Assembly (NCBI RefSeq): GCF_016907755.1
Contig: NZ_JAFBCN010000001.1
Location: forward strand, 1,488,001-1,552,000
DNA from: Cellulosimicrobium cellulans
GTDB taxonomy: Bacteria > Actinomycetota > Actinomycetes > Actinomycetales > Cellulomonadaceae
Reading direction: 5' to 3'
Length of the DNA: 64,000 bases
Part shown: in pieces, positions 2,730 through 44,993 of the stretch
Position numbering within the stretch: position 1 is the first letter of the stretch
Layout: the number at the start of each line of letters is the position of its first letter
Program-made: the position numbers and the translations under genes
The notes under the pieces: generated by a model
Told to the model about the DNA's origin: nothing
What the model saw: the letters and a program-made list of their open reading frames with translations, nothing else
The model's database searches: none

Positions 2730-5700
2730 ATGACCGACAGACCGACCACCCGATCGTCGCGCGGGCGGAGCCCCGCGCGCGGCGCGCTCGCGAGCGTGCT
2801 CAGCGCCGGCCTGGCGCTCACCGGGCTCGCGGCCACCGCGGCCCCGGCCGCCGCCGCGGACCCGTACACCTTCACGAGCACCGAGAACCCGATCCTCGGC
2901 GACGGCAGCTACTACTCGGCCGACCCGGCGCCGCTCGTCGTTCCCGCGGGCGCGCCCGGCAACGCGACGGGCGAGGACGAGCTGTACGTCTACACGGGTC
3001 ACGACGAGGCCGGCCCGACGCGCAACGACTTCGTCATGAACGAGTGGGGCGCGCTCGTGACGAGCGACGTCGACGCGGGGGAGTGGACGCACCACCCGTC
3101 GCTCATGCGGCCCGAGGACGTGTTCGACTGGGCGACGCCGGGCCGCGCGTACGCGGGGCAGGTCGTCCAGGGAGTCGACGGGCGCTACTACTGGTACGTC
3201 CCCGTGCACGAGGCGGGCAGCACGGCGAGCGACGCGTTCGGCATCGGCGTCGCGGTGTCCGAGACCCCGACGGGCCCGTGGACCGACCACGTCGGCGGGC
3301 CGATCATCTCGCAGCGCGTCCCGACCCCGAACACGATCCACAACATCGACCCCACGATCCTGGTCGACGGCGAGGGCGACGACGCCCGCGTCTACGTCTG
3401 GTGGGGCAGCTTCTCCAACCTGCGCATGCTCGAGCTCGCGCAGGACATGAAGACCCCGGTCGGTCAGGTCCGCACGGTCACCGGGCTCACCGGGTTCTTC
3501 GAGGCGGCGTGGGCGTTCGAGCGGAACGGCACCTACTACATGGCGTACGCGGGGAACAACGCCGGGCCGACGTCGTCGTGCACCCCGGCGAACTACCACG
3601 CGTGCATCGCGTACGGGACGGCGACCTCGCCCGAGGGGCCGTGGACGTACCGCGGCACGGTCCTCGCGCCGGTCTCCTCGACGACGAGCCACCCGGGGAT
3701 CCTCGAGTTCGACGGCGAGTGGTGGATCGCCTACCACACGGCCGACGCCGAGGGCGGGAACCACTTCCGGCGCTCGGTCGCGATCGACCGCGTCGAGTGG
3801 GACGACACGCAGTCGCCGCCCCGCATGAAGCAGGTCGTCACGACGCCGGCGAAGGTCACGGACACGACGCCGCGCGCGAACGTCGCGCAGGAGGCGACGG
3901 TCACCGTCTCCAACGAGCCCGTCCCGACCCAGTACTGGAAGAAGGCGCTCAACGACGAGATCGTGCGGCCCAACCCGCTGCCCCCGGACATGTGGGGCAC
4001 GTGGACGGGGAACAACCCGCCGCAGCAGTGGGTGCAGTACACGTGGGACCAGCCGATGCGGCTCGCCGGCTCGCAGATCGAGTTCTGGAACGACCAGCCG
4101 CAGGGCACGGGCGTCGGCGTCGCCGCCCCGGCGTCGTGGCGCATCCAGTACTGGGACGCGTCCGACGGCGGCGCGTGGGTCGACGTGCCGAACCCCAGCG
4201 CCTACGGCACGGCGACGAACGGCTTCCAGGACACGGCGTTCGACCCGGTCACCACGACCCAGGTCCGCGCGGTCTTCGACGCCTCGACCAACGGCAGCAC
4301 GTACTCGGCCGTGGCGGTGGAGGAGTGGAAGGTCCTCGCCGAGCAGCCCGACGCCGTCGAGCCGCCCGGGGTGACGGTCGAGGTCGGGGAGACCGACCTG
4401 CCGGGCGCGGTGCCCGTGACGTTCCCCGGCGGGGAGACGCTGCAGGTCCCCGCCTTCTGGGACGAGGTCGCCGCGGACGACGTCGCAGCCCCCGGCACGT
4501 TCGCCGTCGAGGGGTCCGTGCTCGGCTACGCGGGCGGTCGCGTGAGCACGGAGGTCACCGTGATCCCGGCCGAGGCGGCCGACGGCGACGAGACCGCGCC
4601 GACCGTGACGCTCACGCCGCTGGGCAGCGCCGGCAGCGACGGCTGGTTCCGCTCCGACGTGCGCGTCCGGGTCGACGGCGCCGACGACTCCGGCGGGCGC
4701 GTGGTCCTCACGACGACCGTCGACGACGGCGCGCCCGTCACCACGGAGCCGACCCGGTCGACCGAGGTCGCGGTCGCGGGCGACGGCGAGCACCGGGTCG
4801 TCGCGACGGCCGCGGACCGCGCGGGCAACGTCTCGCCGGAGGCGGCCCTCGACGTCCGGATCGACCGCGTGGCGCCGGTCAGCACGGGCGTCCTCGACCC
4901 GGCGGCGCGCACGGTGACGGTCACCGCGACCGACGCGACCTCCGGGGTCGCGCGCGTCGAGTACGCGATCGGGACCAGCGCGTGGCAGCCGTACGGCGGT
5001 CCCGTGGCCGCCCCGGACGCGAACCAGCACCGGGTGTCGTTCCGCGCGGTCGACGCCGCGGGCAACGCCGAGACGCCGAAGGTCGTGACGGTCCCCGCGG
5101 ACGTCTCCGGACCGCTCGCGGGCAACGTCGCGCCGATCGCCACGGCGAGCGCGTCGTACACCGCGGGGTGGAACAGCGTCGGCGCCCTCAACGACGGCGC
5201 CGACCCGGCGAACCCGAGCCAGGCCCAGATCTGGGGCACGTGGTCCGGGACGCGGCCGGCGACGCAGTGGGTCCGGTACGACTGGTCGCGCCCGATCCGC
5301 CTCACGGGCGCGGAGCTGAAGTTCTGGCGGGACTCGGACCCGGGGAGCGGGGACGGCGTCGTCCGCCCGGACTCCTGGGTGCTGGAGTACTGGGACGACG
5401 CGGCGCAGGCCTGGGCCCCCGTGGCGAACCCGTCCGGGTACGGCACGAGCACGACCGCCTTCAACACCGTGACGTTCGACCCGGTCACCACGTCGCGCCT
5501 CCGGGCGACCTTCGCGGCGAACGGCAACGGGTCGACGTACTCCGCGGTCGCCGTCACCGAGTGGCGCGCGTTCGCGGACGACCCGGGCACGGGCGGCCCC
5601 GAGCCCGAGCTCCCGGTCACCGTCACCGCGCAGGCGCGCTGCCTCGCGGGCAAGGCCTACGTCGCCGTGGTCGCGACCCACGACCACGACGCGCCCGTCG

Positions 5701-5897
5701 ACGTCGTCGTCGAGACGCCGTACGGGACGCGGTCGTTCCCCGCGGTGGCGCCCGGGAAGAGCGCCTACCAGTCGTTCGCCGTCCGCGCGGCGGTCGTCGA
5801 GGCGGGCGCCGTGGTCGTGCGCGCGACCGGCACGGTCGACGGCACGGAGGTGACGACGGAGACCGGGGCGGAGTACGCCGCCCTGGGCTGCGGGTGA
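2730..5897 (+). CDS. Secreted GH43 glycosidase with two discoidin-like modules
   Basis: This 1055-residue exported enzyme is probably an arabinofuranosidase or xylosidase acting on plant hemicellulose or arabinan. A Sec signal peptide ends near AAPAAAA (about residue 45). The GH43 propeller (about 47-377) shows the three expected acidic motifs: YYSADPAPL (base), HNIDPTIL (modulator) and FFEAAWAFERNG (acid). It is followed by an F5/8-type-C-like module (about 382-540), a Big_4-type Ig module, Ig-like repeats, a second F5/8-like module (about 797-950) and the C-terminal RCLAGK...GCG domain (bases about 5614-5894). ATG 2730 follows AGGAG and starts the basic n-region of the signal. It lies away from the main arabinose locus and has no TGTKAGCG operator, but carries the same tail domain. 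Confidence 0.85.
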   Translation: MTDRPTTRSSRGRSPARGALASVLSAGLALTGLAATAAPAAAADPYTFTSTENPILGDGSYYSADPAPLVVPAGAPGNATGEDELYVYTGHDEAGPTRNDFVMNEWGALVTSDVDAGEWTHHPSLMRPEDVFDWATPGRAYAGQVVQGVDGRYYWYVPVHEAGSTASDAFGIGVAVSETPTGPWTDHVGGPIISQRVPTPNTIHNIDPTILVDGEGDDARVYVWWGSFSNLRMLELAQDMKTPVGQVRTVTGLTGFFEAAWAFERNGTYYMAYAGNNAGPTSSCTPANYHACIAYGTATSPEGPWTYRGTVLAPVSSTTSHPGILEFDGEWWIAYHTADAEGGNHFRRSVAIDRVEWDDTQSPPRMKQVVTTPAKVTDTTPRANVAQEATVTVSNEPVPTQYWKKALNDEIVRPNPLPPDMWGTWTGNNPPQQWVQYTWDQPMRLAGSQIEFWNDQPQGTGVGVAAPASWRIQYWDASDGGAWVDVPNPSAYGTATNGFQDTAFDPVTTTQVRAVFDASTNGSTYSAVAVEEWKVLAEQPDAVEPPGVTVEVGETDLPGAVPVTFPGGETLQVPAFWDEVAADDVAAPGTFAVEGSVLGYAGGRVSTEVTVIPAEAADGDETAPTVTLTPLGSAGSDGWFRSDVRVRVDGADDSGGRVVLTTTVDDGAPVTTEPTRSTEVAVAGDGEHRVVATAADRAGNVSPEAALDVRIDRVAPVSTGVLDPAARTVTVTATDATSGVARVEYAIGTSAWQPYGGPVAAPDANQHRVSFRAVDAAGNAETPKVVTVPADVSGPLAGNVAPIATASASYTAGWNSVGALNDGADPANPSQAQIWGTWSGTRPATQWVRYDWSRPIRLTGAELKFWRDSDPGSGDGVVRPDSWVLEYWDDAAQAWAPVANPSGYGTSTTAFNTVTFDPVTTSRLRATFAANGNGSTYSAVAVTEWRAFADDPGTGGPEPELPVTVTAQARCLAGKAYVAVVATHDHDAPVDVVVETPYGTRSFPAVAPGKSAYQSFAVRAAVVEAGAVVVRATGTVDGTEVTTETGAEYAALGCG

Positions 5898-5941
5898 CGA
5901 TCCCGACCCCGCCCCGGGGATGACGGGCGGGTGAACCCGTC

Positions 5942-27082: not shown

Positions 27083-29980
27083 ATGAGCAGACACCGGAGA
27101 CGACGAGCCGCGGCGACGATCGTGGCGGGCGTGCTGGCGCTCGGGGCCGGCCTGCCCGCGGCGCACGCCACCGCGACGGCCGACGACGAGCCCCCGGCGG
27201 CGACCGCCCTCACCGGGCTGACCACGACGGACCGCGGCGACGGGACCTACGACGTCCCGCTGCTGCGCAGCGACGTGCCCGACATCTCGGTCACGCGCGT
27301 CCCCGCCGCCGAGAACGACGAAGGCCGCGACGTCTACTACATGATCAGCACGACGATGCACCTCGCGCCCGGTGCCCCGATCATGAAGTCGTACGACCTC
27401 GTGAGCTGGGAGATCGTCGGGTACGTCTACGACCGGCTCGGCGTCGGCGACGTGTCGTCGCTGCGCAACGGGCAGAACGGGTACGGCAACGGGCAGTGGG
27501 CCTCCTCGCTGCGGTACCACGACGGCACGTTCTACGTGGTGTTCAACACCAACGACCTCGGGGGGTCGTACCTCTTCCGGACGGACGACGTCGAGGGCGG
27601 CGCGTGGGAGCGGACGCCGCTCGGCCGGAGCCTGCACGACCCGTCGCTGTTCTTCGACGAGGCGGACGGCGGGACGCCGTACATCTTCTACGGCTCCGGC
27701 GGGACGAGCGCCGTCCGGCTCGACGCCGGCCTCACCCGGATCGAGCAGGACTTCCCGAACATCTTCCGTGCCGAGGACTACGCGGGCGAGCCGTTCGTCG
27801 GGGGGCTGTTCGAGGGCGCGCAGGTGCACTACATCGACGGCGAGTACTACGTCGCGATCATCACGTGGCCCAGCGGCCAGAACCGGCAGGAGGTGCTTCT
27901 ACGCTCCCCGCACCTGCTGGGCCGCTACGAGACCGCCGACGGGTCGAACCCGTACGAGGCGCGCAGCGCGCTGAACTCCGACGGCTTCGCCCAGGGCGGG
28001 CTCGTCGAGGTGCCCGACGGCGCGGGCGGCTACGAGTGGTGGGGGATGTTCTTCCGCGACACCTACCCCCTCGGCCGCATCCCCGCGCTCATCCCCGCGA
28101 CGTGGCAGGACGGCTGGCCGACGTTCGGCGACGACGGCGTCGTCCGCGTCGGCGACACGTTCGCCAAGCCGATCGTGCTGGACCCGGCGACGGAGCGCCG
28201 GGAGCGGCTGAAGAGCATCGTCGCCTCCGACGACTTCGCGAACGACGCCGAGCACCGCGCGTTCAGCGACACCGTCTGGGAGGTCCCCGACGCGCCGACG
28301 TACGACGAGTCCCTGCTCGGCGTCGAGCTCGTCGCCAACCCCGGGTTCGAGGACCCGACGACCGCGCCGTGGGCCGCGCAGTTCGGCGCGACGCTGTCGC
28401 GCGAGACGAGCGGCACGGCGTCGGGCACGGGCGCGCTGCGCGTCGCGGGCCGGACCCTCAACGGCTCCGGGCCGAACCAGCAGCTCGGCGGGAAGATCCA
28501 GGCGGGCGCGACCTACGAGGTCTCGGCCCGGGTCCGCTACGCCGCCGGGCCGGCGCAGGTCCGCTTCAACCTCGTCGGAGACTGGGGCGCGGGCGTCACC
28601 ACGCTCGCGTGGGCGAACGCCACGCCGGGGGAGTGGACGACCGTGCGGGGCACCTACACCGTCCCGCGGGACGCCGACGTCCGGACCTTCAAGCTCGCGG
28701 TCGAGACGCCGTGGGGCAATCCGCAGCCGCCGTCGTCGAGCGTCGAGTACCTGCTCGACGACGTGTCCGTGGTCGGCCGCGCGCCGGACGTCGAGACGCC
28801 CACGCTCGAGGAGGTGTCGTACAACGGCTCGGACCTCGACCTCGCCTGGCAGTGGAACCACGCGCCGGACAACCGGTACTGGTCGCTCACCGAGCGCGAG
28901 GGCTGGCTGCGCCTGACCAACGGGCACGTCGTGACCGGCGAGGCGGAGTACACGAAGGCGCCCGGGCGCGACCTCACGTATCTCGAGGAGGCGCGCAACA
29001 CCCTCGGTCAGCGCACGTTCGGCCCGACGTCGTCGGCCCAGACGAGGATCGACGTCTCCGGGATGCTCGACGGCGACGTCGCCGGCCTCGCCGTCTACGG
29101 GCGCAGCTTCGCGTACGCGGGGATCCAGCAGGTCGACGGCGAGCGCACGCTCGGCCTCGTCACCCGGCTCCAGCCGTTCACCGACACGATCGACCGCGAG
29201 GCGGTCGAGTCGTTCGTCCCCGGGTCGCAGGTCCCGCTGGGCGAGCACGCGGACGTGCACCTCAAGGCGGACGCGGACTTCGCCTCGCCGAACGGCCAGC
29301 TCTGGGTGCAGTACTCCTACAGCCTCGACGGTCGGACCTGGCAGCCGCTCGGTGCGCGCCAGGGGCCGCTCGTCATGGACTGGAGCCTGTCCCACTTCAT
29401 GGGGTACCGGTTCGGCCTCTTCTCCTACGCGAAGGAGCAGACCGGCGGGCACGTCGACTTCGACCACTTCCTCCTCAGCGACGTGCTCGACGCCGACGGC
29501 GGCGCCGACCGGACGGCGCTCGACGCCGTCGTCGCCGAGGCCGAGGGGCTCGACCCTGCGGACTACACCACCGAGTCGTGGTCTGCCGTCACGAAGGGGC
29601 TCGCGTCGGCGCGGGCCACGACCGCGCCGTCGACCCAGAACGAGGCGGACGCACCCGCGCGGGCGCTCGCGCTCGCCGTCGCGTCCCTCGTGCGGGCCGA
29701 CACCGCCGAGGTCGCGTTCACGGCCGAGGCGAGCGTGCGCGCCCTGGCGGGGAAGGACTACGTCGCCGTGCGCGTGACGAACGACGAGGACGTGCCCGTG
29801 GACGTCGTCGTCACCACGCGGTACGGCAGCCGGTCGTTCGCCGACGTCGAGCCGGGCCGCAACGCGTACCAGGCGTTCGCGAGCCGCCTCACGAGCGTCC
29901 CGGCGGGCGAGGTGACGGTCTCGGTCACCCGTTCGACCGACGGGTCCACCGCGACCCGCACGGTCGCGTACGGCAGCTGA
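27083..29980 (+). CDS. Secreted GH43 glycosidase with CBM4_9, GH43_C2 and FIVAR-like modules
   Basis: A 965-residue exported GH43 enzyme. After a Sec signal (to about residue 33), the propeller (about 56-370) shows the base in VPDISVTRV, a DPSLFFDEADGG motif and the acid in GLFEGAQVHYIDGEYYV. A CBM4_9-like module (about 412-570) interrupts the usual layout before a GH43_C2 sandwich (WQWNHAPDN...WLRL, about 580-800). A FIVAR-like helical segment follows. The tail domain is present (bases about 29710-29977) but reads RALAGK and ends YGS, so both cysteines found in the other copies are missing. AGGAGG at 27071-27076 fixes ATG 27083 over the in-frame ATG 27059. Exact bond specificity (arabinofuranosyl or xylosyl) cannot be told by reading. 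Confidence 0.85.
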   Translation: MSRHRRRRAAATIVAGVLALGAGLPAAHATATADDEPPAATALTGLTTTDRGDGTYDVPLLRSDVPDISVTRVPAAENDEGRDVYYMISTTMHLAPGAPIMKSYDLVSWEIVGYVYDRLGVGDVSSLRNGQNGYGNGQWASSLRYHDGTFYVVFNTNDLGGSYLFRTDDVEGGAWERTPLGRSLHDPSLFFDEADGGTPYIFYGSGGTSAVRLDAGLTRIEQDFPNIFRAEDYAGEPFVGGLFEGAQVHYIDGEYYVAIITWPSGQNRQEVLLRSPHLLGRYETADGSNPYEARSALNSDGFAQGGLVEVPDGAGGYEWWGMFFRDTYPLGRIPALIPATWQDGWPTFGDDGVVRVGDTFAKPIVLDPATERRERLKSIVASDDFANDAEHRAFSDTVWEVPDAPTYDESLLGVELVANPGFEDPTTAPWAAQFGATLSRETSGTASGTGALRVAGRTLNGSGPNQQLGGKIQAGATYEVSARVRYAAGPAQVRFNLVGDWGAGVTTLAWANATPGEWTTVRGTYTVPRDADVRTFKLAVETPWGNPQPPSSSVEYLLDDVSVVGRAPDVETPTLEEVSYNGSDLDLAWQWNHAPDNRYWSLTEREGWLRLTNGHVVTGEAEYTKAPGRDLTYLEEARNTLGQRTFGPTSSAQTRIDVSGMLDGDVAGLAVYGRSFAYAGIQQVDGERTLGLVTRLQPFTDTIDREAVESFVPGSQVPLGEHADVHLKADADFASPNGQLWVQYSYSLDGRTWQPLGARQGPLVMDWSLSHFMGYRFGLFSYAKEQTGGHVDFDHFLLSDVLDADGGADRTALDAVVAEAEGLDPADYTTESWSAVTKGLASARATTAPSTQNEADAPARALALAVASLVRADTAEVAFTAEASVRALAGKDYVAVRVTNDEDVPVDVVVTTRYGSRSFADVEPGRNAYQAFASRLTSVPAGEVTVSVTRSTDGSTATRTVAYGS

Positions 29981-30135: not shown

Positions 30136-32553
30136 ATGGACACGCACCACCGCAGACGACGTCGCCTGCGCGGCGCCGTCGCCGGGGCCGCGCTCGCGAC
30201 GCTGCTCTCCGCGTCGCTCGCCGCGCTGCCGTCGTACGCCGCGGACGAGGAGCTGGTCGTCAACGGCGGCTTCGAGGACGGCACGACCGGCTGGTTCGTC
30301 AACAACGGCAACGCGACCGACAAGGCCGTGCTGTCGACCACCGACCAGGCGTTCGCGGGCGAGGCCGCAGCCCTGACCACCGCGCGCGCGACGACCGGCT
30401 CCGGTCCGATGCAGGACCTCAGCGGCAAGGTTCGCGCGGGCGAGACGTACGAGCTGACCGCGAAGATCCGGTACGACGACGCCGCGGCCCCGGCCACCAA
30501 GCAGTTCTTCGCCACGATGCACTACGGCGGCGGGACGTACACGAACCTGGTGAGCGTCACCGCGACCAAGGGCCAGTGGGCGACGCTCGACGGCCGGTTC
30601 ACGATCCCGGCCGACCAGAACGTCGGCACCGCGCGGCTGTTCTTCGAGACGCCGTGGACGAGCAACCCGTCCGCCGACCCGGCGACGCACCTCATGGACT
30701 TCGTGCTCGACGACGTCTCCGTCGTCGGCGCGCCCCCGCCCGGGCCGCCCTCGAAGACGATCGAGGTGCTCGGCAAGCTGCCCGGCGAGCACAACCCGCT
30801 CATCTCCCACAAGTTCGGGGCCGACGGGTTCGGGTTCGTCGAGGACGGCCGCGTGTACATGTACATGACGAACGACACCCAGGGCTACGCGCCCGACCCG
30901 GTGACGGGCGTCTCGCCGCAGATCAACTACGGCAGCATCAACCAGATCACGCTCATCTCGTCCGAGGACCTCGTGAACTGGACGGACCACGGCGAGATCC
31001 AGGTCGCGGGGCCGCAGGGCGTCGCGCCCTTCACGAACAACTCGTGGGCGCCGGGCATGGCGAAGAAGACGGTCGACGGCGTCGACAAGTACTTCCTCTA
31101 CTACGCCAACGGCGGCGGGTCGTCGAACGTCATCACGGGCGCCTCGCCGCTCGGGCCGTGGACGAGCGAGCGCGACAGCACGCTCATCGACGGGCGCACC
31201 CCGGGCGCCGAGGCCGTGGCCTGGAAGTTCGACCCGGCGCCGCTCGTCACCGACGACGGCGCGTACCTCTACTTCGGCGGGGGCCCGGCGTCGACGTCGA
31301 TGCCCGCGGCGGAGCGGTTCAACAACCCGAAGAACATCCGCGTCATCGAGCTCGGCGACGACATGGTCTCGACGAAGGGCACGGCAGCCGTCGTGGACGC
31401 GCCCGTGGCGTTCGAGGCGGCGCAGGTCTTCGAGCGCGAGGGCAAGTACTACCTGTCGTACTCGTCGCACTTCGGCGGCAACGACTTCGGCGGCAACCAG
31501 GCCACGCTCCCGGGGTACCCGGGCGGAGGGCAGATCGGCTACATGATCTCCGACGACCCGATGTCGTTCCCCAAGGAGACGTACGCCGGCGTGATGTTCC
31601 CGAACCAGTCGCAGTTCTTCGGTGCGGGCACGGGTGGCAACAACCACCAGTCGGTGTTCGAGCTGGACGGCAAGTACTACTTCACGTACCACGCGCCCAC
31701 GCTCAACAAGCGCATCAACGGCAGCACCACGCAGGGCTACCGCAGCCCGCACATCCAGGAGCTGACGTTCAACGCGGACGGCACGGTCCAGCAGGTCGTG
31801 GGCGACTACGCGGGCGTGGACCAGGTCAAGGACCTCGACCCGTTCCAGGTGCTCGAGGCGGAGACCTTCGCGTGGCAGCAGGGGCTCACCACGGCGAAGG
31901 TCGACGGCGGCTCGGCGCAGTTCGGCACCCAGGCGCCGAACCTCGTCGTCCGCGACGTCGACGCCGGCGACTGGTCGGCGCTGTCGTCGGTCGACTTCGG
32001 CGACGGTGCCGCGAGCGTCACGGCGCGCGTCAGGCCGCTCGTCGAGGGCGCGACGGTCGAGGTGCGCCTCGACGACCGCGAGGGTGCCGTCGTCGGCACG
32101 CTCGACCTCGACACCCCGGTGGGCGAGTGGGCGGACGTGACCGCCGCCCTCGAGGGCGTGAGCGGCGTCCACGACGTGTACTTCACGTTCGCCGGCCCCG
32201 CGGGCGTCGACCTCGTCGAGGTGGACACGTGGGAGTTCGCGGCCGACGCCGCAGGCCCGGCCGTCGAGCTCGACGTGACCGCGTCCGCACGCTGCCTCGC
32301 GGGCAAGGCCTACGTGGCGGTGCGCGCGACGAACCTGGGCGACGTCGCGGCCGACGTCGAGCTCGCCACCCCGTTCGGCACGCGCGTCGTGGCCGACGTC
32401 GCTCCGGGCGCGAACGCGTACCAGTCGTTCGCGGCGCGGTCCACGTCGCTCGCGGCCGGGGTCGCGACCGTCACGGGCACGGCGCCGGTCGACGGCGCCG
32501 ACGTCAGCACGCCGTACGAGGTCGCGTTCGACGCGCTCGCCTGCGGGGGCTGA
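30136..32553 (+). CDS. Secreted GH43 arabinofuranosidase-like enzyme with CBM4_9 and CBM6-like modules
   Basis: An 805-residue exported enzyme. The Sec signal ends near PSYAA (about residue 36). A CBM4_9-like module (about 38-202) precedes the GH43 propeller (about 214-565). The propeller opens with NPLISHKFGAD, typical of arabinoxylan arabinofuranohydrolase-like GH43 proteins, with KFDPAPLV and the acid in FEAAQVFEREGKYY. A CBM6-like sandwich (EAETFAWQQG..., about 570-705) follows. The tail domain RCLAGK...ACGG occupies bases about 32263-32550. ATG 30136 follows GAGGAGGA closely. No operator of the arabinose type is seen in the 155-base gap upstream. Confidence 0.88.
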   Translation: MDTHHRRRRRLRGAVAGAALATLLSASLAALPSYAADEELVVNGGFEDGTTGWFVNNGNATDKAVLSTTDQAFAGEAAALTTARATTGSGPMQDLSGKVRAGETYELTAKIRYDDAAAPATKQFFATMHYGGGTYTNLVSVTATKGQWATLDGRFTIPADQNVGTARLFFETPWTSNPSADPATHLMDFVLDDVSVVGAPPPGPPSKTIEVLGKLPGEHNPLISHKFGADGFGFVEDGRVYMYMTNDTQGYAPDPVTGVSPQINYGSINQITLISSEDLVNWTDHGEIQVAGPQGVAPFTNNSWAPGMAKKTVDGVDKYFLYYANGGGSSNVITGASPLGPWTSERDSTLIDGRTPGAEAVAWKFDPAPLVTDDGAYLYFGGGPASTSMPAAERFNNPKNIRVIELGDDMVSTKGTAAVVDAPVAFEAAQVFEREGKYYLSYSSHFGGNDFGGNQATLPGYPGGGQIGYMISDDPMSFPKETYAGVMFPNQSQFFGAGTGGNNHQSVFELDGKYYFTYHAPTLNKRINGSTTQGYRSPHIQELTFNADGTVQQVVGDYAGVDQVKDLDPFQVLEAETFAWQQGLTTAKVDGGSAQFGTQAPNLVVRDVDAGDWSALSSVDFGDGAASVTARVRPLVEGATVEVRLDDREGAVVGTLDLDTPVGEWADVTAALEGVSGVHDVYFTFAGPAGVDLVEVDTWEFAADAAGPAVELDVTASARCLAGKAYVAVRATNLGDVAADVELATPFGTRVVADVAPGANAYQSFAARSTSLAAGVATVTGTAPVDGADVSTPYEVAFDALACGG

Positions 32554-32874: not shown

Positions 32875-35800
32875 ATGACCTCACGCCACGAACCACCCCC
32901 GACGCTCGCGGAGCCCCGCGCCCGACGCCGACGCCGCTCGCTCGCGGCGCTCCTCGGGCTCGCGCTGGTCGCACCGCTCGCGCCCGTGGGCGCGGCGGCC
33001 GCCGGCCCGATGCCCGCGGCACCCGCGCCGGTCCCGGCCGCGGCCGAGCCGAGCGCGGAGGGGCTCCGGCTCTGGCTCCCGCTCGACGAGACCGCCGGTA
33101 CTGTCGCGCACGACGCGTCCGGCAACGGGATGGACGGGACCCTCACGGGCTCCGGCGGCGGCTGGCAGCCCGGTCAGGGCCTGACCTTCGGCGGGTCGAA
33201 CCACGTCGACCTCCCCGACGACCTCCTGGCCGGGTACGACGCCGTGACGGTGAGCGCCGACGTGTGGGTCGACGCGTCGCTGAGCGGCAACTACTTCTTC
33301 TACACCCTCGGCAACCCGGCGGTCGGCAGCCCGCAGTCGGGGAACGGCTACCTGTTCTCGACGGGCAACGCGAACTACCGCGCGACGATCTCCGACCTCG
33401 CGTGGGGCCGCGAGCAGAACACCGCCAAGGCGCCCGCGGGCGCGCTCCAGCGCGGAGTCTGGAAGACGATCACGTACACCCTCGGCGGCGGCACCGCGCG
33501 GCTGTACGAGGACGGCACCCAGGTCGGGCAGAACACGGCCGTGACCATCACACCCGGCGCGATCGGTGGCGGCACGACGACCGCGAACGCGCTCGGCAGG
33601 TCGGCCTACGCCGCCGACAACCTCTTCAAGGGCCGCATGAAGGACTTCCGGCTCTACGACCGCGCTCTCACCGCGCAGGAGGTCGCCGACGTCGCGGCGG
33701 CCTCCGCGCAGGACGCCGTCGCGGCCGACGCCGCCGCGCTCGACCTCGGCGACACGACCGCCGTCGTCACCGACCTCGCGCTCCCCGCGAAGGGCGTCGG
33801 CGGCTCGGCGGTGACCTGGGCGAGCTCCGACGAGGCCGTCGTCTCCGCGAGCGGCGCGGTCACGCGCCCCGCAGGCGACGAGCCGGCGACCGCGACGCTC
33901 ACCGCCACGGTGGCGCTGCGCGGAGCGACCGAGACCCGCGCGTTCGACGTCACGGTCCTGCCGGGCGACGGCGACCAGGCCAAGGCCGACGCCGCGGCCG
34001 CCGCGCTCGAGGTGACGAACCTCGACGACGTGCGCGGCAACCTGACCCTGCCCACCGCGGGGCTGCACGGCGCGAGCGTGGCGTGGGCGACGTCGTCGGG
34101 CACGATCAGCCCGACGGGCGAGGTCACGCGCCCCGCGCACGGCGAGGACGCCGAGACCGTGACGCTCACGGCGACGGTGACCGTGGGCGCGGCCTCCGCC
34201 ACGCGCGAGCTCGCGGCGCACGTCCCCGCGCTGCCCGCGCAGGAGGACCTCGCGGGCTACCTCTTCTCGTACTTCGTCGGCGAGGGCACGGCGACGGGCG
34301 AGCAGGTCTACTTCGGGCTGAGCCAGGGCAACGACCCGCTGAAGTACCAGAACCTCAACGACAACCAGCCGGTGCTGACGTCGGAGCTGGGGGAGAAGGG
34401 CCTGCGGGACCCGTTCATCATCCGCTCGCCCGAGGGCGACAAGTTCTACCAGATCGCGACCGACCTCAAGATCTACGGCAACGGGAACTGGGACGCGTCC
34501 CAGCGCACGGGCTCGAAGTCGATCATGGTGTGGGAGTCCACGGACCTCGTGACCTGGACCGACCAGCGCCTCGTCCAGGTCTCGCCCGACACCGCGGGCA
34601 ACACGTGGGCGCCGGAGGCGTACTACGACGAGACCATCGGGGCGTACGTCGTGTTCTGGGCCTCGAAGCTCTACGCGGAGGACGACCCGGGCCACACCGG
34701 CAACACCTACAACCGCATGATGTACGCCACGACGCGCGACTTCGTGACGTTCAGCGAGGCGCAGGTGTGGGTCGACCCGGGCTACTCGGTCATCGACTCG
34801 ACCGTGACGCAGCACGACGGCCAGTACTACCGCTTCACCAAGGACGAGCGGAACAACACGTCGTCCACGCCGTGCTCCAAGTTCATCCTCGGCGAGAAGT
34901 CGGCCGAGCTGCGCTCGACGGACTACGAGTTCATCACCGACTGCATCGGCAAGGCGAACTCGCTCGGCGGCGGGATCAACCAGGGCGAGGGCCCGACGAT
35001 CTTCAAGTCCAACACCGAGGAGAAGTGGTACCTCTTCATCGACGAGTTCGGCGGCCGCGGCTACGTGCCGTTCGAGTCGACCTCGCTCGACGCGGCCGAG
35101 TGGACCATGTCCACCGACTACCAGATGCCGTCGCGCCCGCGCCACGGCACGGTGCTCCCGGTGACGCAGGCCGAGTACGACCGCCTGCTGAGCACCTACC
35201 AGCCCGACGCGTTCGTCGAGTCCGTCGACGACGTCGCGGTCACGGTGCAGACGGGCTCCACGCCCCTGCTGCCCGCCACCGTCACCGCCCACTACGCCGA
35301 CGGGTCGACCGGCCCGGCCGACGTCACGTGGGACGCGGTCGACCCGGCGTCGTACGCGCAGGCCGGCTCGTTCGAGGTCGCCGGCACGCTGGGCGGCGGG
35401 GTGAGCGTCCGCGCCCGCGCGGTCGTCACCGTGACCGACGACGTCGTCCCTGTCGAGGGCCTGAGCGTCACCCCCGAGTCGCTCGAGGTGGGCGTCGGCG
35501 GCGCGCGGCAGCTCACCGCCACCGTCACGCCCGCCAACGCGACGGCGCGCGCGATCACGTGGGCGTCGGACGACGCGGACGTCGCCACGGTCTCGGCCGA
35601 CGGCGTCGTCACGGGCGTCGGCGAGGGCCACGCGCTCGTCACGGCGACGACCGCGGACGGATCGCACACCGCGTACGTCGCGGTCGAGGTGACCACGGAG
35701 ATCCCGGGCCTCGTCGTGCGGTACGCGTTCGACGAGACGAGCGGCACGGCGGCGGCGAACACCGCGCCCGGGTCCGCGTTCGGCCCGGCGACGCTCGCCA

Positions 35801-37812
35801 ACGGCGCGGCGTTCTCGGGCACCGGGGAGGGCGTCCGGCTCGACGGGACGGACGACTACGTCGACCTGCCCGACCACCTGCTCTCCGGGCTCACCGACGT
35901 CACGGTCGGGCTCGACGTCAAGGTCGCGACGGACCAGGCGACGCCGTACTTCATCTACGGCCTGGGCAACACGAGCGGCACGGCGGGGAACGGGTACCTG
36001 TTCACCACGGGCAACGCGTACCGCACGTCGATCGCGACGGGGAACTGGACGACCGAGCAGACGGTCACCAAGAACGCGAACCTGCAGCGCGGGGTGTGGA
36101 AGCACCTCACGTACACGCTGTCCGGCACGACGGCCGTGCTCTACGAGGACGGCGTCGAGGTGGGCCGCCAGACGGGCGTCACCACCGACCCGCAGGACAT
36201 CGGCAACGGCTCGACGCTCGCCAACTACATCGGCCGCTCGCTCTACTCGGGCGACCGCTACCTCAAGGGCTCCGTGCGCGACTTCCGGGTCTACGACCGC
36301 GCGCTCACGGCGGACGAGGTCTACCAGGTCGGCGCGGACCACACGGCGGTCACCGGGGCGGAGCTCGACGCGCTCAAGGTGCCCGCGATCGTCGACGGCG
36401 CGAGCTCGACCGTCACCCTCCCCGTCGTGCCGGGCACGGACGTCTCGGCGCTCGCGCCGGTGCTCACCGTGTCGCCGCGCGCGACGGTGACGCCCGCCAA
36501 CGGCTCGGTGCAGGACTTCACGCAGCCCGTGGAGTACACCGTCACCGGGCCCGACGGGTCGTCGCGCACGTGGACCGTGCAGGCGAAGCAGATGGGCAGC
36601 CCCGTGCTGCCGGGGAAGTACGCCGACCCGAACATCGCGCAGTTCGGCGACACGTTCTACCTCTACGCCACGACCGACGGCACGCCGGGCTGGGGCGGCA
36701 AGGACTTCTACGTCTGGAAGTCGACCGACCTCGTGACGTGGGAGCGCTCGGAGCAGCCGTTCCTCACGCTCGACGGCGCGGACGGGAACGTCCCGTGGGC
36801 GACCGGCAACGCGTGGGCGCCCACGATCATCGAGCGGGACGGGAAGTACTACTTCTACTTCTCCGGCCACAACCCGACGTACAACCGGAAGACGATCGGC
36901 GTCGCGGTGGCCGACAGCCCCGAGGGCCCGTTCACCGCGCAGCCGACGGCGATGATCACGAACGGCGAGGCGGTCACCTCGGGACAGGCCATCGACCCGG
37001 CGGCCTTCCGTGACCCGGAGACCGGGAAGTACTGGCTCCTGTGGGGCAACGGCGGGCCGTCGAACGGGCCGGTCATGGCGGAGCTGAACGACGACATGAC
37101 GTCGATCAAGCAGGACACGCTGCGGCGCATCCCCGGCCTGACCGACTTCCGCGAGGGCCTGTTCCTCAACTACCGGGACGGGACGTACCACCTCACGTAC
37201 TCGATCGACGACACGGGGTCGGAGAACTACCGCGTCGGCTACGCGACGTCGGACAGCATCGACGGACCGTGGACGTACCGCGGCGTGATCCTCGAGAAGG
37301 ACGTCTCGCAGGGCATCCTCGGGACGGGGCACAGCTCGATCCTCCACGTCGAGGGCACGGACGACTGGTACATCGCGTACCACCGGTTCGCGATCCCCGG
37401 CGGCAACGGGACGAACCGCGAGACGACGATCGACCGCCTCACGTTCGGCGAGGACGGCCTCATCCAGAAGGTCGTGCCGACGCTCGAGAGCGTGGACCCG
37501 GTCGACGTCTCGCCCGCCCCGGTGGTCGAGCTGACCGTCGAGGCCACCCCGCGGTGCCTCGCGGGCAAGGTCTACGTCGCGGTCCGGGCGACGAACGCGG
37601 GCGACGTGCCCGCCGACGTCACCCTCACGACCCCGTACGGCACGAAGACGTTCGCGGGCGTGGGCCCGGGGGCGAACGCGTACCAGTCGTTCGCGACCCG
37701 CGCGACGTCGGTCGAGGCCGGCACGGTGACCGTCACCGGCACGGCGACGCTCGACGGCACCCCGGCCACGACGACGTACGACGTCGCGTACGCCGCGCAC
37801 ACCTGCGGCTGA
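32875..37812 (+). CDS. Secreted protein with two GH43 domains
   Basis: This 1645-residue exported protein combines two GH43 domains. Order: Sec signal (to about 45), LamG (about 62-275), two degenerate bacterial Ig modules (about 282-450), GH43-A (about 460-777; LRDPFIIRSPEGDKFY, VIDSTVTQHDG and GEGPTIFKS supply the acidic residues), Big_4 (about 780-855), Big_2 (about 860-942), second LamG (about 943-1157), GH43-B (about 1242-1542; KYADPNIAQ, AIDPAAFRD and FREGLFLNYRDG) and the RCLAGK...TCG tail (bases about 37522-37809). Two GH43 domains in one chain occur in bifidobacterial enzymes acting on plant glycoprotein arabinan chains; that parallel is inference. Two abutting arabinose operators and another operator type lie upstream. 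ATG 32875 follows GAGGAG. Confidence 0.88.
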   Translation: MTSRHEPPPTLAEPRARRRRRSLAALLGLALVAPLAPVGAAAAGPMPAAPAPVPAAAEPSAEGLRLWLPLDETAGTVAHDASGNGMDGTLTGSGGGWQPGQGLTFGGSNHVDLPDDLLAGYDAVTVSADVWVDASLSGNYFFYTLGNPAVGSPQSGNGYLFSTGNANYRATISDLAWGREQNTAKAPAGALQRGVWKTITYTLGGGTARLYEDGTQVGQNTAVTITPGAIGGGTTTANALGRSAYAADNLFKGRMKDFRLYDRALTAQEVADVAAASAQDAVAADAAALDLGDTTAVVTDLALPAKGVGGSAVTWASSDEAVVSASGAVTRPAGDEPATATLTATVALRGATETRAFDVTVLPGDGDQAKADAAAAALEVTNLDDVRGNLTLPTAGLHGASVAWATSSGTISPTGEVTRPAHGEDAETVTLTATVTVGAASATRELAAHVPALPAQEDLAGYLFSYFVGEGTATGEQVYFGLSQGNDPLKYQNLNDNQPVLTSELGEKGLRDPFIIRSPEGDKFYQIATDLKIYGNGNWDASQRTGSKSIMVWESTDLVTWTDQRLVQVSPDTAGNTWAPEAYYDETIGAYVVFWASKLYAEDDPGHTGNTYNRMMYATTRDFVTFSEAQVWVDPGYSVIDSTVTQHDGQYYRFTKDERNNTSSTPCSKFILGEKSAELRSTDYEFITDCIGKANSLGGGINQGEGPTIFKSNTEEKWYLFIDEFGGRGYVPFESTSLDAAEWTMSTDYQMPSRPRHGTVLPVTQAEYDRLLSTYQPDAFVESVDDVAVTVQTGSTPLLPATVTAHYADGSTGPADVTWDAVDPASYAQAGSFEVAGTLGGGVSVRARAVVTVTDDVVPVEGLSVTPESLEVGVGGARQLTATVTPANATARAITWASDDADVATVSADGVVTGVGEGHALVTATTADGSHTAYVAVEVTTEIPGLVVRYAFDETSGTAAANTAPGSAFGPATLANGAAFSGTGEGVRLDGTDDYVDLPDHLLSGLTDVTVGLDVKVATDQATPYFIYGLGNTSGTAGNGYLFTTGNAYRTSIATGNWTTEQTVTKNANLQRGVWKHLTYTLSGTTAVLYEDGVEVGRQTGVTTDPQDIGNGSTLANYIGRSLYSGDRYLKGSVRDFRVYDRALTADEVYQVGADHTAVTGAELDALKVPAIVDGASSTVTLPVVPGTDVSALAPVLTVSPRATVTPANGSVQDFTQPVEYTVTGPDGSSRTWTVQAKQMGSPVLPGKYADPNIAQFGDTFYLYATTDGTPGWGGKDFYVWKSTDLVTWERSEQPFLTLDGADGNVPWATGNAWAPTIIERDGKYYFYFSGHNPTYNRKTIGVAVADSPEGPFTAQPTAMITNGEAVTSGQAIDPAAFRDPETGKYWLLWGNGGPSNGPVMAELNDDMTSIKQDTLRRIPGLTDFREGLFLNYRDGTYHLTYSIDDTGSENYRVGYATSDSIDGPWTYRGVILEKDVSQGILGTGHSSILHVEGTDDWYIAYHRFAIPGGNGTNRETTIDRLTFGEDGLIQKVVPTLESVDPVDVSPAPVVELTVEATPRCLAGKVYVAVRATNAGDVPADVTLTTPYGTKTFAGVGPGANAYQSFATRATSVEAGTVTVTGTATLDGTPATTTYDVAYAAHTCG

Positions 37813-37823
37813 CCCCACCCCGC

Positions 37824-37928: not shown

Positions 37929-40514
<2,586 letters not shown>

Positions 40515-40728: not shown

Positions 40729-42978
40729 ATGCACGTGCACGACTCCAGATATTCGCGGCGGGCCGTCCTGCGGCTCGGGGCGCTGGCCGCCGGGGCGACC
40801 GGCGCCGTCGCGCTCGCGGGCGGCGGCAGCGCGCTCGCCGCGCCGCCGGTCCCGGCACTGACGGTCCCGAGCGGACCGCCCGTCAGCCGGGCCTTCCTGC
40901 GGTCCCTCGACCGCTCGGTGACCTTCGACGGCTGGGCCGCCGAGCCGTTCCCGATGTCCGACGTGACGCTCGCCCCGAGCGTCGCGACGCGCTCGCAGGA
41001 CCAGATCCTGCACCTCGCGCGCGAGTACCCCGTGGACCGCGTCCTCGCGGTGTTCCGGCGCAACGCCGGGCTCGACACCAAGGGCGCGTCCGCGCCCGGC
41101 GGCTGGGAGGGCTTCGGCCACGCCAACGAGCAGCCGTGGGGCCCCGACGACTACCCGGGCCGCGCGAACACCCAGACCGCGAACCTCCTGCGGGGGCACT
41201 ACGGCGGGCACTTCCTGTCCATGGTGTCGCTCGCGTACGCGAGCACGGGCGAGACGGTGTTCCGCGACAAGGTGGACCATCTCGTCGAGGGTCTGGCGGA
41301 GGTCCAGACGGCGCTCGCGGCCATGGGCCGGTTCAGCCACCCCGGCTTCCTCGCGGCGTACGGCGAGTGGCAGTTCAGCCAGCTCGAGAAGTACGCGCCG
41401 TACGGCGAGATCTGGGCGCCGTACTACACGTGCCACAAGATCATGGCGGGACTCCTCGAGGCGTACCGCCTCGCGGGCAGCGACCAGGCGCTCGAGCTCG
41501 CGTCCTCGATGGCGGCGTGGGTGCACAGCCGTCTGTCGGTCCTGCCGCAGGCGCAGCTCGACCGGATGTGGGGCATCTACATCGCGGGCGAGTACGGCGG
41601 CATGAACGAGGTGCTGGCCGACATCGCGTCGATCACGGGCGACGACACGTACGTCGCCACCGCGAAGCTGTTCGACCTCAACACGCTCGTGGACGCGAGC
41701 GCCGCGGGCACGGACACGCTCAACGGCAAGCACGCGAACCAGCACATCCCGCAGTTCCCGGGGTACCTCAAGGTCTACGACCTCACGGGCGAGGAGCGGT
41801 ACCTCCGCGCCGTCGAGGGCTTCTGGGGCATGGTCGTGCCCGGGCGCACGTACGCGCACGGCGGTCACGGCGAGGGCGAGCTGTTCGGCCCGCCGAACAC
41901 GGTCGCGGGCGACATCGGCGCGCGCAACGCCGAGACGTGCGGCACGTACAACATGCTCAAGCTCTCGCGGCTCCTGTACTTCCACTCGCTCGACCCGAAG
42001 TACATGGAGTACTACGAGCGCGGGCTGCTCAACCACGTCGTCGGCTCGAAGAAGAACTCGCAGTCCACGACGAGCCCCGACGTCACGTACATGTACGGCG
42101 TCAACCCGGGCACGCGCCGCGAGTACGGCAACACGGGCACGTGCTGCGGCGGCACCGGGCTCGAGAACCACGTGAAGTACCGCGACTCGGTCTACTTCCG
42201 GTCGGTCGACGGCGAGGTGCTCTACGTCAACCTCTACCTCGCCTCCACCCTGACGTGGGCGGAGAAGGGCTTCGAGGTCGTGCAGGAGACGCAGTACCCG
42301 AAGGTAGGGGCGACCCGCCTCACGGTGAACGGCTCCGGGCAGCTCGACCTGCGCCTGCGCGTGCCCGGCTGGGTGCGCAAGGGCTTCACGGTGACGGTCA
42401 ACGGCGTGGAGCAGGACCTCGACGCGGTCCCGGGGACGTACGCGAGCGTGTCGCGCTCGTGGTCGCCCGGCGACGTCGTCGACGTGACGATGCCGCTGAG
42501 CATCCGCGCCGTGCCGACGATCGACAACCCCGCGATCCAGAGCATCGAGAACGGGCCGACGGTCCTCCTCGCGCGCAGCGCGTCGCGCGAGTACCTCAAG
42601 TTGTCCCTCTACGCCCACATGGGCCTCGACGGCACGCTCGAGGGCGCGTTCACGGACACCGGGAACGGGTACTTCCGCCTCGGGGACCTCACGTTCGAGC
42701 CCGCGTGGTCGGGCGACGACACGCAGTACCACATGTACGTCGAGCGCTCCGAGCCGCGCGTCGTCTTCGCGGGGCTCGACAGCGGCGTCGCCAACGCCGC
42801 CCGGCCCAACGGGACGACGTTCCTCGACGTCGTGTGGGGCGACGGCGGGTTCGCCGACCGCGCCGCCTTCCTCCAGAAGGTCCAGCGCACCGTCGAGCAG
42901 TTCACCGCGGACGGCCTCCTGAGCCGCCGCGACGGTCAGAAGGTCCTGGTCACGGCGGGGAAGGCGAGGCTGGCATGA
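40729..42978 (+). CDS. Tat-exported GH127-type beta-L-arabinofuranosidase
   Basis: A 749-residue enzyme of the DUF1680/GH127 family. Unlike its Sec-type neighbours it has a twin-arginine signal (SRRAVLRLGALAAG, about residues 7-20, ending near SALAA), implying export in folded form. The metal/thiol motifs are ETCGTYN with C404 and TCCGGTG with C472/C473, so the zinc site may be filled before export (inference). It has neither LamG nor Ig modules and lacks the RCLAGK tail found on the other enzymes. Its stop overlaps the start of the next gene, which encodes exactly such accessory modules without a catalytic domain. AAGGAG lies 12 bases before ATG 40729. Confidence 0.9.
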   Translation: MHVHDSRYSRRAVLRLGALAAGATGAVALAGGGSALAAPPVPALTVPSGPPVSRAFLRSLDRSVTFDGWAAEPFPMSDVTLAPSVATRSQDQILHLAREYPVDRVLAVFRRNAGLDTKGASAPGGWEGFGHANEQPWGPDDYPGRANTQTANLLRGHYGGHFLSMVSLAYASTGETVFRDKVDHLVEGLAEVQTALAAMGRFSHPGFLAAYGEWQFSQLEKYAPYGEIWAPYYTCHKIMAGLLEAYRLAGSDQALELASSMAAWVHSRLSVLPQAQLDRMWGIYIAGEYGGMNEVLADIASITGDDTYVATAKLFDLNTLVDASAAGTDTLNGKHANQHIPQFPGYLKVYDLTGEERYLRAVEGFWGMVVPGRTYAHGGHGEGELFGPPNTVAGDIGARNAETCGTYNMLKLSRLLYFHSLDPKYMEYYERGLLNHVVGSKKNSQSTTSPDVTYMYGVNPGTRREYGNTGTCCGGTGLENHVKYRDSVYFRSVDGEVLYVNLYLASTLTWAEKGFEVVQETQYPKVGATRLTVNGSGQLDLRLRVPGWVRKGFTVTVNGVEQDLDAVPGTYASVSRSWSPGDVVDVTMPLSIRAVPTIDNPAIQSIENGPTVLLARSASREYLKLSLYAHMGLDGTLEGAFTDTGNGYFRLGDLTFEPAWSGDDTQYHMYVERSEPRVVFAGLDSGVANAARPNGTTFLDVVWGDGGFADRAAFLQKVQRTVEQFTADGLLSRRDGQKVLVTAGKARLA

Positions 42979-44993
42979 GCGCGCGCACTCACTCATCGCG
43001 GGGCGCGGGCTCGGCCGTGCTCATCCCGCTCGGGCACGAGCCGGGGACACCCCGGGCCCGACGGCGCGTGGTCGCCACCGCGACCGTCCTCGCCCTGGCC
43101 CTCACGGGCGCGGGCGTCGGGGCGTGGGCCGCGACCTCGGGCACCGGGGACGAGGTCCTGGCGGCGGCCGACGAGGCGCCGTCGAACGTGGCGCTGCTCG
43201 GCACGCCCGAGGCGAGCTACACGGCGTCGTGGAACAAGGTCGAGGCCGTGAACGACGGCGCGGGCGTGAGCACCGGGGGAGCGCACGACGCGACCTGGGC
43301 GACGTGGAGCGGGGACCGACCCGCGACGCAGTGGCTCGAGTACTCGTGGCCCGCACCGGTCACGGTGGACCGTTCCGTCGTCCGGTTCTGGTCCGACGGC
43401 ATCGACGCGAACGGCGACAACGTGCGCGTCCCGGCGTCGTGGAAGCTCCAGTACTGGGACGCGGACACCGGCGCGTTCGTCGACGTCCCGAACCCGAGCG
43501 GCTACCCGACCGAGCGCCTCACGACCAACGAGACGACCTTCGACGCGGTGACGACGACGCGCCTGCGCGCGACGTTCGACGCGCTGCGGGGCACCACGGC
43601 GGCGACGTACTCGGGCGTCGGGGTGTCGGAGTGGGAGGTCTGGGGCACGGGTGGCGTCGAGGAGCCGGAGCCGGTCGACCCGAACGGACCGATCGACTAC
43701 TCGCCGGTCCACGTCCCGACCGACGTCGGCGTCCTGCCCGACCTGCCGGCGGAGATCGACGCGATCTTCACCGACGGCCGCGTGGAGACCGTCGCCGTGG
43801 ACTGGGAGGACGTGACGCCCGACGACGTCGCCGCCGCGGGGGCGTTCGAGGTCACCGGGACGTCGGACGAGCTCGTCGAGCCGGTGAGCGGCACGGTGCA
43901 CGTGCGCGACGGCGAGCCGGGCGCGATCACGGCCGTCGACAACGTGAGCGTCGTGACGCTCGCGGGCACGGCCCCGGCGCTCCCCGCGACCGTCACGGCC
44001 GAGTACGAGGACGCGTCCAAGGACAGCCGCATCCCCGTGACGTGGGACGCCGTGGACCCGGCCGACTACGCCGAGCCGGACGGGCTGTTCTTCGTCGACG
44101 GGGACGTCGAGGGGACGGACGTGCCGGCCGAGGCCGTCGTGTTCGTCATCGCGCCGGACACCGGCGAGGACACGACACCGCCCACGGTGACCGTCACGGC
44201 CCAGCCCGGCGCGGCGACGTCGGGCTGGTACGTCCAGCACCCGACCGTCACGGTCGTGGCGTCCGACAACCGCGACCCGGCCCCGGCGGTCGAGGTCTCG
44301 GTCGACGGCGGCGCGTGGACCGCGTACGACGGACCGTTCGCGGTCGACGAGGACGGGGTGCGCACCGTCGAGGCGCGCGCCACGGACGCGGCGGGCAACG
44401 TCGGCACGGGTTCGCGCGAGCTCCGCGTGGACACGGTCGCGCCCGCGACGGTCGCGACGCTGCGCGAGGTCGGCAGCAGCGTCGAGATCACCCTCGCGGC
44501 CACCGACGCGGGCTCGGGCGTGGACAAGGTGCAGTGGGAGGGCCCCGGCACGTTCTGGGGCACGTACACGGAGCCGTTCACGCGCGCGCTCACCGACGAG
44601 CCGCAGGTCATCGAGTTCGCCGCGACCGACGCGGCGGGCAACGAGGAGGTGCGCCAGCAGGTCGTGCTGCCCGCGCTCGGCGACGAGCCGGAGCTCGCGC
44701 TGGACGTCGAGGTGTCGCCCCGTTGCCTCGCCGGCAAGGCGTACGTCGCCGTGCGCGTCACGAACGGCGAGGACGTCCCGGTGTCGGTGTCGCTCGCCAC
44801 GCCGTACGGCGAGAGGGCGTTCGCGGACGTGGCGCCCGGCAGGAACGCCTACCAGTCGTTCGCGACGCGCGCGACGTCGGCCCCGGCCGGCACCGCGACC
44901 GTCACGGGGACCACCACGGTCGACGGCCCCGACGGACCCCAGGAGGTGACCGCCACGGTCGACGCGCCGTTCGTCGCGCTCGACTGCGGCTGA
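42975..44993 (+). CDS. Secreted non-catalytic modular protein with discoidin-like, Ig and RCLAGK-tail domains
   Basis: A 672-residue protein with an unusually long n-region before one hydrophobic export helix (about residues 34-52, VVATATVLALALTGAGVGAW). It could be cleaved or stay membrane-tethered. It contains one F5/8-type-C-like module (about 68-225; very similar to the two in the protein at 2730), two Big_4-type Ig modules (about 235-395), an Ig-like/OmpL47-type repeat region (about 405-565) and the tail RCLAGK...DCG (bases about 44698-44990). No glycosidase domain is present. ATG 42975 overlaps the stop of the Tat-type GH127 gene by four bases, so the two products are made together. A scaffold or substrate-binding partner for that enzyme is a reasonable guess. 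Confidence 0.8.
   Translation: MSARTHSSRGAGSAVLIPLGHEPGTPRARRRVVATATVLALALTGAGVGAWAATSGTGDEVLAAADEAPSNVALLGTPEASYTASWNKVEAVNDGAGVSTGGAHDATWATWSGDRPATQWLEYSWPAPVTVDRSVVRFWSDGIDANGDNVRVPASWKLQYWDADTGAFVDVPNPSGYPTERLTTNETTFDAVTTTRLRATFDALRGTTAATYSGVGVSEWEVWGTGGVEEPEPVDPNGPIDYSPVHVPTDVGVLPDLPAEIDAIFTDGRVETVAVDWEDVTPDDVAAAGAFEVTGTSDELVEPVSGTVHVRDGEPGAITAVDNVSVVTLAGTAPALPATVTAEYEDASKDSRIPVTWDAVDPADYAEPDGLFFVDGDVEGTDVPAEAVVFVIAPDTGEDTTPPTVTVTAQPGAATSGWYVQHPTVTVVASDNRDPAPAVEVSVDGGAWTAYDGPFAVDEDGVRTVEARATDAAGNVGTGSRELRVDTVAPATVATLREVGSSVEITLAATDAGSGVDKVQWEGPGTFWGTYTEPFTRALTDEPQVIEFAATDAAGNEEVRQQVVLPALGDEPELALDVEVSPRCLAGKAYVAVRVTNGEDVPVSVSLATPYGERAFADVAPGRNAYQSFATRATSAPAGTATVTGTTTVDGPDGPQEVTATVDAPFVALDCG

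Follow-up and report, generated by a model that had tools for sequence, protein, structure and literature searches.

A recurrent C-terminal domain on exported enzymes of Cellulosimicrobium cellulans and its possible role in envelope retention

We analyzed a 64,000-nucleotide stretch of DNA (the window; RefSeq assembly GCF_016907755.1, contig NZ_JAFBCN010000001.1, forward-strand positions 1,488,001 to 1,552,000) from Cellulosimicrobium cellulans, a member of a genus known for its yeast-lytic enzymes. An earlier note, made from the letters of this stretch, had proposed that eight of its exported proteins share a portable C-terminal domain. This domain, here called the tail, is about 95 residues long in the alignment of the eight proteins and recurs throughout the genome at the ends of otherwise unrelated exported proteins. 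The domain itself, its position, its copy number, the linked loss of its two cysteines and its association with export in two enzyme families are shown at the level of sequence. The reading that we tentatively prefer, while granting it slightly less than an even chance, is that the tail may be a lineage-specific, non-covalent handle for retention at the cell envelope.

That the eight window proteins end in one shared domain was borne out: the tails align, with 51-56% identity to the first and 27 invariant columns. All eight reading frames are open from the proposed ATG starts, and the N-termini are, by eye, hydrophobic, Arg-rich and signal-peptide-like, in keeping with their description as exported. 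The motif as first described had to be amended in part. The start R-C-L-A-G-K is present in seven of the eight, but gene 27083 reads RALAGK; the middle T-P-Y-G stands as TPYG in five, but is TPFG in two and TRYG in gene 27083; and the last Cys, placed one or two residues from the stop, is penultimate in six and has two residues after it in gene 30136 (which ends CGG), but is absent from gene 27083 (which ends ...AYGS). The start proposed for the feature, 5614, falls within the first tail. The catalytic parts do differ, Pfam recognizing GH43, GH51-type and GH127-type domains as well as accessory domains in seven of the bodies, i.e., the parts of the proteins that precede the tail. The eight genes, all on the plus strand, are listed by window position, with domains from Pfam unless stated otherwise and tails from the alignment.

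2730..5897, plus strand: GH43 with Big_4 and F5/8-type domains; tail about 5607-5897, with Cys codons at 5640-5642 and 5889-5891
18659..22540, plus strand: GH51-type alpha-L-arabinofuranosidase; tail about 22250-22540, the top-scoring copy of the genome
22750..26928, plus strand: GH127-type beta-L-arabinofuranosidase; tail about 26638-26928
27083..29980, plus strand: GH43 with CBM4_9 and GH43_C2; tail about 29708-29980, Cys pair absent, zero Cys in the whole protein
30136..32553, plus strand: GH43 with CBM4_9 and CBM6; tail about 32260-32553, its Cys pair being the protein's only Cys
32875..37812, plus strand: two GH43 domains with LamG, aBig_2, Big_2 and Big_4; tail about 37522-37812
37929..40514, plus strand: LamG, two aBig_2 and GH43; tail about 40224-40514, its Cys pair being the protein's only Cys
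42975..44993, plus strand: no catalytic domain recognized by eye, discoidin-like and Ig-like parts; tail about 44691-44993, its Cys pair being the protein's only Cys

Against a profile built from these eight tails (A1), the tails themselves score E 3.6e-40 to 1.4e-48, and copies outside the window score down to E 1.2e-43; the similarity is therefore not chance, and chance resemblance is ruled out. Spread of the tail by duplication together with its body is also ruled out, since the bodies are unrelated. Nor is the domain confined to the locus, as had been thought: 59 places in the genome match the profile at E <= 0.01. Of these, 57 are terminal tails in as many proteins, one copy each as the last domain, which supports the claim of a portable, always-last module on unrelated catalytic parts; the other two are divergent internal copies in a single protein. 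The only internal case found in this genome is L052 (genome positions 4528028-4533082, minus strand), a 1684-codon protein with four weak, divergent, internal copies and, by eye, a CBM5/12-like end. Among the 57 carriers, one residue follows the last Cys in 46, none in 7 and two in 1; in the other 3 the tail has no Cys. A further tailed gene (L064, genome positions 1479228-1484144) ends about 4 kb to the left of the window, so that the cluster of tailed genes reaches past it.

The bodies outside the window were classified by a Pfam scan of up to 1000 residues after the presumed signal peptide, for all 50 non-window carriers (L052 included). Saccharolytic bodies comprise six GH92 as well as GH2, GH10, GH13, GH26, GH30/43, GH43, GH95, GH97 and PL8, and further bodies of sugar-acting type are pectate-lyase-like, MGH1-like, glucoamylase-like and sialidase-like; ThuA/GSDH proteins, a sugar-isomerase-like TIM barrel and 3-keto-disaccharide-hydrolase types were found too. 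Non-saccharolytic Pfam families occur in 11 of the 57 carriers: S8, M28, two Exo_endo_phos, purple acid phosphatase, metallophosphatase, Phosphodiest, PAP2, GDSL, esterase and asparaginase, the tail of the last being divergent. The GDSL and esterase carriers could conceivably act on sugar esters. Eight non-window carriers contain no recognized catalytic family within the scanned part.

A signal-peptide-like stretch is present in 55 of the 57 carriers according to a hydropathy script, which is permissive and scans far into over-extended open reading frames, and in the other two (genes 30136 and 42975) by eye; a cytoplasmic role of the carriers was accordingly rejected. The complement, i.e., whether tail-less relatives are exported, was checked for the GH43 and GH92 families. 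GH43 has 9 matches above the cut-off in 8 proteins of the genome, 7 of them tailed, and GH92 has 7 proteins above the cut-off, 6 of them tailed. The single tail-less member of each family has, by eye, an N-terminus without a signal peptide, so that tail and export coincide in both; one further GH43 match below the cut-off (502 codons) has neither tail nor signal peptide.

Among relatives, 25 of 59 genomes match the A1 profile and 26 of 59 match a broader one (A3), this genome being counted in both. It and all 16 congeners carry 26-64 copies each. Of 20 further genera of the family, each represented by one genome, six match, five with 1-5 copies and Oerskovia flava (G026) with 36; in the order, 3 of 22 genomes match, with 1-2 copies each. 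All three genomes of a genus that is probably Oerskovia (g326) match, with 32, 30 and 14 copies, and zero copies were found in three family members that have a homologous GH127 enzyme. Class-wide, 7 of 89 genomes match, the six others among them carrying 2-7 copies, and phylum-wide at least 6 of 396 do, a lower bound because that search scored 12 candidates per genome. The tail is thus multiplied in Cellulosimicrobium and two Oerskovia-like genera (14-36 copies), and scarce or missing in most of the other genomes searched. In O. flava, 26 of the 36 tailed bodies have a counterpart in the C. cellulans genome at 64-87% identity, including a subtilase, an M28 peptidase, a nuclease, a purple acid phosphatase and one GH92.

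The terminal position holds across these genomes. The loci examined, from Micromonospora, Nonomuraea, Plantactinospora, Phytohabitans and Jiangella among others, contain 203 distinct copies. Of these, 198 have their end no more than 8 residues from the stop, one is cut by a contig end and the four internal ones all belong to L052; nine Micromonospora copies have 5-7 residues beyond the aligned end. In public proteins, the tail stands at the C-terminal end in 120 of the 120 matches listed. The earlier note had held that homologues with the domain placed internally and in cytoplasmic proteins would speak against its reading: internal copies occur in one protein (L052, divergent), besides two proteins with a tandem tail pair at the end (loci L217/L221 and L218/L222), and the GH43 and GH92 members checked include no cytoplasmic carrier.

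Conservation within the tail was examined in an alignment of 148 rows (A2), derived from 199 tails. An 88% identity filter left 154 of them, from which six were dropped (2 fragments, 1 divergent copy and 3 more), and one row was swapped for its window relative. Both cysteines are present in 145 of the 148 and neither in 3, with zero mixed cases. Being kept or lost together in every copy, the pair very likely staples the ends of the domain, through a putative disulfide between the RCLAGK Cys and the C-terminal Cys. More tails without the pair are those of L046, L068, L177, L179 and L252. Also conserved across bodies are R12, Y19, R/K43, Y55-Q56 and R61. A structural model of the tail (pLDDT 97.4, pTM 0.88) has strands at residues 5-14, 17-26, 32-38, 41-48, 53-59, 68-78 and 81-91, the predicted fold being a seven-strand, Ig-like, all-beta sandwich. 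A VIA structure comparison gave Z up to 9.7 among 998 aligned chains, with many generic Ig-like sandwiches at similar Z, and a Foldseek search of the PDB with the same model found no match at E <= 0.001 (best E 6.9e-3).

In the retention reading, the tail would be a small, independently folding Ig-like domain, its ends clamped by the putative disulfide, that is fused as the last module to many kinds of exported enzyme. After export, the folded tail would dock on one ligand common to the envelope or glycan coat and so keep the enzymes close to the cell. Its role in Cellulosimicrobium and the Oerskovia-like genera would thereby match that of the SLH, CWB2 or sortase signals on some homologues elsewhere. 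A common envelope ligand would explain the independence from the body, the link to export and the presence of anchors in the same slot of homologues.

The absence of a named family, as first noted, is supported by Pfam and NCBIfam scores of the window tails below the cut-offs. In Pfam, the eight window tails (E <= 10) reach at best 12-15 bits, compared to gathering cut-offs of 21-28. The 148 aligned tails (E <= 0.1) weakly match 40 families, of which 25 were listed; the most frequent among these is DUF4232 (17 of 148, best E 1.5e-4), for which two window tails score 13.2 and 12.2 bits against a cut-off of 27. In NCBIfam, including its models of type IX secretion C-terminal domains, the best score of the window tails (E <= 10) is 16.6 bits against a cut-off of 81. 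Sequence searches of the PDB with the tails gave chance-level or sub-cut-off matches alone, and asparaginase matches among them (best E 0.039) were dismissed as chance. Neither SLH (PF00395) nor CWB2 (PF04122) matches the eight window tails or appears among the 25 of 40 families listed for the 148. The features of LPXTG sortase signals (L-P-x-T-G, membrane segment, basic end) are absent from the tails, which end in a beta strand followed by C-G/S/A/R or C. A literature search on the tail motif, Cellulosimicrobium enzymes and actinobacterial surface proteins found no description of the tail in the titles and abstract openings listed, most subscription literature lying outside its coverage. The tail is therefore unnamed as far as Pfam, NCBIfam, PDB sequences and the literature searched are concerned, CAZy/dbCAN and InterPro being outside this scope.

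Several known systems offer comparisons. LPXTG/sortase, SLH and CWB2 anchors resemble the tail in that some homologues of these bodies carry them, chiefly toward the C-terminus; the tail differs from them in having no such motif, membrane segment or PF00395/PF04122 match in the window and in being a single folded Ig-like domain. From the Ig-like CARDB, NPCBM_assoc (NEW3) and PKD domains it is set apart by sequence similarity far under significance, by its terminal position and by its own motifs (RCLAGK, AYQSF, terminal Cys). The signals of type IX secretion are folded terminal domains. In Bacteroidota, they too stand at the ends of many exported proteins of one genome, many of which are surface-attached (excerpt of PMC9143113). 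This shared pattern, in which dozens of proteins of a genome end in a folded domain, allows the alternative that the tail is a sorting signal recognized and cleaved by a dedicated enzyme. We consider this highly improbable: the lineage is Gram-positive and, judging from its taxonomy, has no outer membrane, no NCBIfam sorting model matches the eight window tails, and one sortase was found in the genome at E <= 1e-4, no search for processing enzymes having gone beyond that. The tail further differs from the type IX domains in its Cys pair.

A second alternative, which we hold to be rather unlikely, is that the tail is a new carbohydrate-binding module (CBM), in which a face with Tyr19 and Tyr55 would bind a polysaccharide of plant or fungal origin (arabinan, hemicellulose or a common cell-wall glycan) and target the enzymes to their substrate. 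Consistent with this, the eight window copies sit in a locus of GH43, GH51-type and GH127-type enzymes, and positions 19 and 55 hold two aromatic residues in 195 of 246 copies, two non-aromatic ones in 31 and one of each in 20 (counts that ignore kinship). In two genomes of another family the copies are clustered, 9 of 11 within 60 kb (G322) and 6 of 9 within 27 kb (G370). In low-copy genera, GH43 was found in 9 of 10 bodies scanned, a biased sample since the 10 were picked from 28 loci ranked by likeness to the window tails, and in 5 of 10 bodies of a second sample. A sugar-binding module would explain both this GH43 bias and the clustering. Conversely, the tail also sits on peptidases, nucleases and phosphatases, none of the 57 terminal copies of the genome is in tandem, and it comes last in the protein, whereas many CBMs do not. 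No Pfam CBM family scores above its cut-off for the window tails, the best weak match being CBM_35 (E 0.0019 among the 148 tails). In the same genus, exported beta-1,3-glucanases have a CBM13 lectin tail that is likewise a C-terminal non-catalytic module (excerpt of PMC1458353); CBM13 differs in being a threefold-repeat module held to bind mannose, and Pfam does not match the tail to it.

The earlier note had favored a location tag over substrate choice. This view gains from the peptidases, nucleases and phosphatases among the 57 and from the SLH, CWB2 or sortase signals in the slot of some homologues, but loses from the most frequent state of tail-less homologues, described below, and from the GH43-rich low-copy sample. 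An arabinan- or hemicellulose-binding role is thus conceivable, because the low-copy bodies scanned were mostly GH43, in that biased sample. Against this bias stand other carriers among the public matches listed for low-copy genera: ThuA/GSDH proteins in Nonomuraea and Microbispora and, in Sphaerisporangium, an M14 carboxypeptidase.

What occupies the C-terminal slot when the tail is missing was examined in homologues of three bodies. For the body of gene 37929, 120 of 1305 matches were listed: 22 have the domain, a sortase-like end was assigned to 6 and a membrane segment to 1 (P0122, doubtful and apparently a false positive), and 91 have none of these, although the 91 include three SLH and one CWB2 by Pfam and some fragments. 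For the nuclease body of L036, the listed matches (120 of 3550) comprise 27 tails, 3 SLH (one of them right at the C-terminus), 2 CWB2, 3 sortase-like ends, 8 Big_3_5, 4 CBM5/12, 1 hydrophobic end and 69 with none. The other 3 were classed as membrane-type: one carries an MPGTG motif, another is a tail-like domain bearing an extension, and the third is doubtful. Within the family, the GH127 body of gene 22750 has the tail in three congeners and two g326 genomes; of its tail-less homologues, L236 has an LPKTG sortase signal, L235 another Ig-like end and L237 nothing. Known anchors, therefore, do occupy this slot, in a minority.

Some homologues of gene 37929 (in Georgenia, Microbacterium, Glycomyces and others) bear a divergent type of tail, with RCVAGKVVLTV and no AYQSF. 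Two proteins, P0271 and P0286, have an apparent tail variant followed, after the last Cys, by a Pro-rich and hydrophobic, aromatic-ended extension. By eye, the L036 nuclease seems to bear genus-specific ends. In one listing (P0273-P0291, P0298-P0307, P0309-P0354), its homologues in Promicromonospora and Myceligenerans look CBM5/12-like at the end, and many in Leifsonia and Arthrobacter have a Trp-rich, amphipathic-looking end, in both cases with no Pfam match.

Tails of public carriers whose body matches one in the C. cellulans genome were compared to the tails of that genome only. Among 104 such carriers, the nearest tail is that of the matching protein in 65, another in 38 and tied in 1; for the 74 pairs whose bodies share 80% identity or more, the counts become 62, 12 and 0. 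For example, P0048 has a body 96% identical to its match, while its tail is 65% identical to the matching tail and 78% to that of a different enzyme. This suggests that tails may be exchanged or replaced. Fast, exchangeable evolution, with the 12 of 74 pairs just mentioned, and the end position could also be explained by an inert structural cap: a stable, disulfide-clamped Ig-like domain, with no ligand, that would shield the C-terminus from exopeptidases or aid folding after export. The Cys pair that pins the ends, the indifference to the body and the other Ig-like domains that end some homologues fit such a cap. Against it, the conserved residues seem, in our judgement, to exceed the needs of the fold, one sequence family recurring on 57 bodies is more than a pure cap would call for, and Cys-less versions persist; we regard it as unlikely.

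It should be noted that several of these observations weigh against retention at the envelope as well. The tail is often less conserved than the body, which is odd for a receptor-binding part. Most tail-less homologues have no recognized anchor (the 91 of 120 and 69 of 120 listed above), and other Ig-like domains (Big_3_5, 8 of 120) or CBM5/12 (4 of 120) also fill the C-terminal slot. To these are added the 9 of 10 GH43 bodies in low-copy genera and the other exported Cellulosimicrobium enzymes that end in CBM13 (excerpt of PMC1458353).

If the tail is a retention handle, it would decide whether the enzymes stay with the cell or go free; it would be a candidate display tag for Gram-positive hosts, to be kept or removed knowingly in enzyme production. 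If it is a binding module, a new CBM-like family would result. In both cases, a single annotation could be given to dozens of C-termini that now have none. A bolder version of the retention reading, which we think doubtful, is a genus-wide system of surface display in Cellulosimicrobium and Oerskovia, undescribed in the sources searched, in which a stapled Ig-like C-terminal domain would dock tens of unrelated exported enzymes on one dedicated envelope receptor (glycan or protein). In its logic, such a system would parallel the type IX signal in a Gram-positive lineage, and terminal tags of their own would exist in other actinobacterial genera.

Apart from the tail, the window contains 12 occurrences of CGAGGTAGA, compared to a mean of 0.4 in 100 shuffles, none of which reached 12. 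Ten of the 12 are direct and inverted repeats, about 20 to 30 bases apart, immediately 3' of tailed genes. The sites are as follows (window positions).

22544-22612: CGAGGTAGA repeats
37824-37872: CGAGGTAGA repeats
45012-45070: CGAGGTAGA repeats
21894 and 42233: further CGAGGTAGA sites

These repeats are a possible operator of the arabinan locus.

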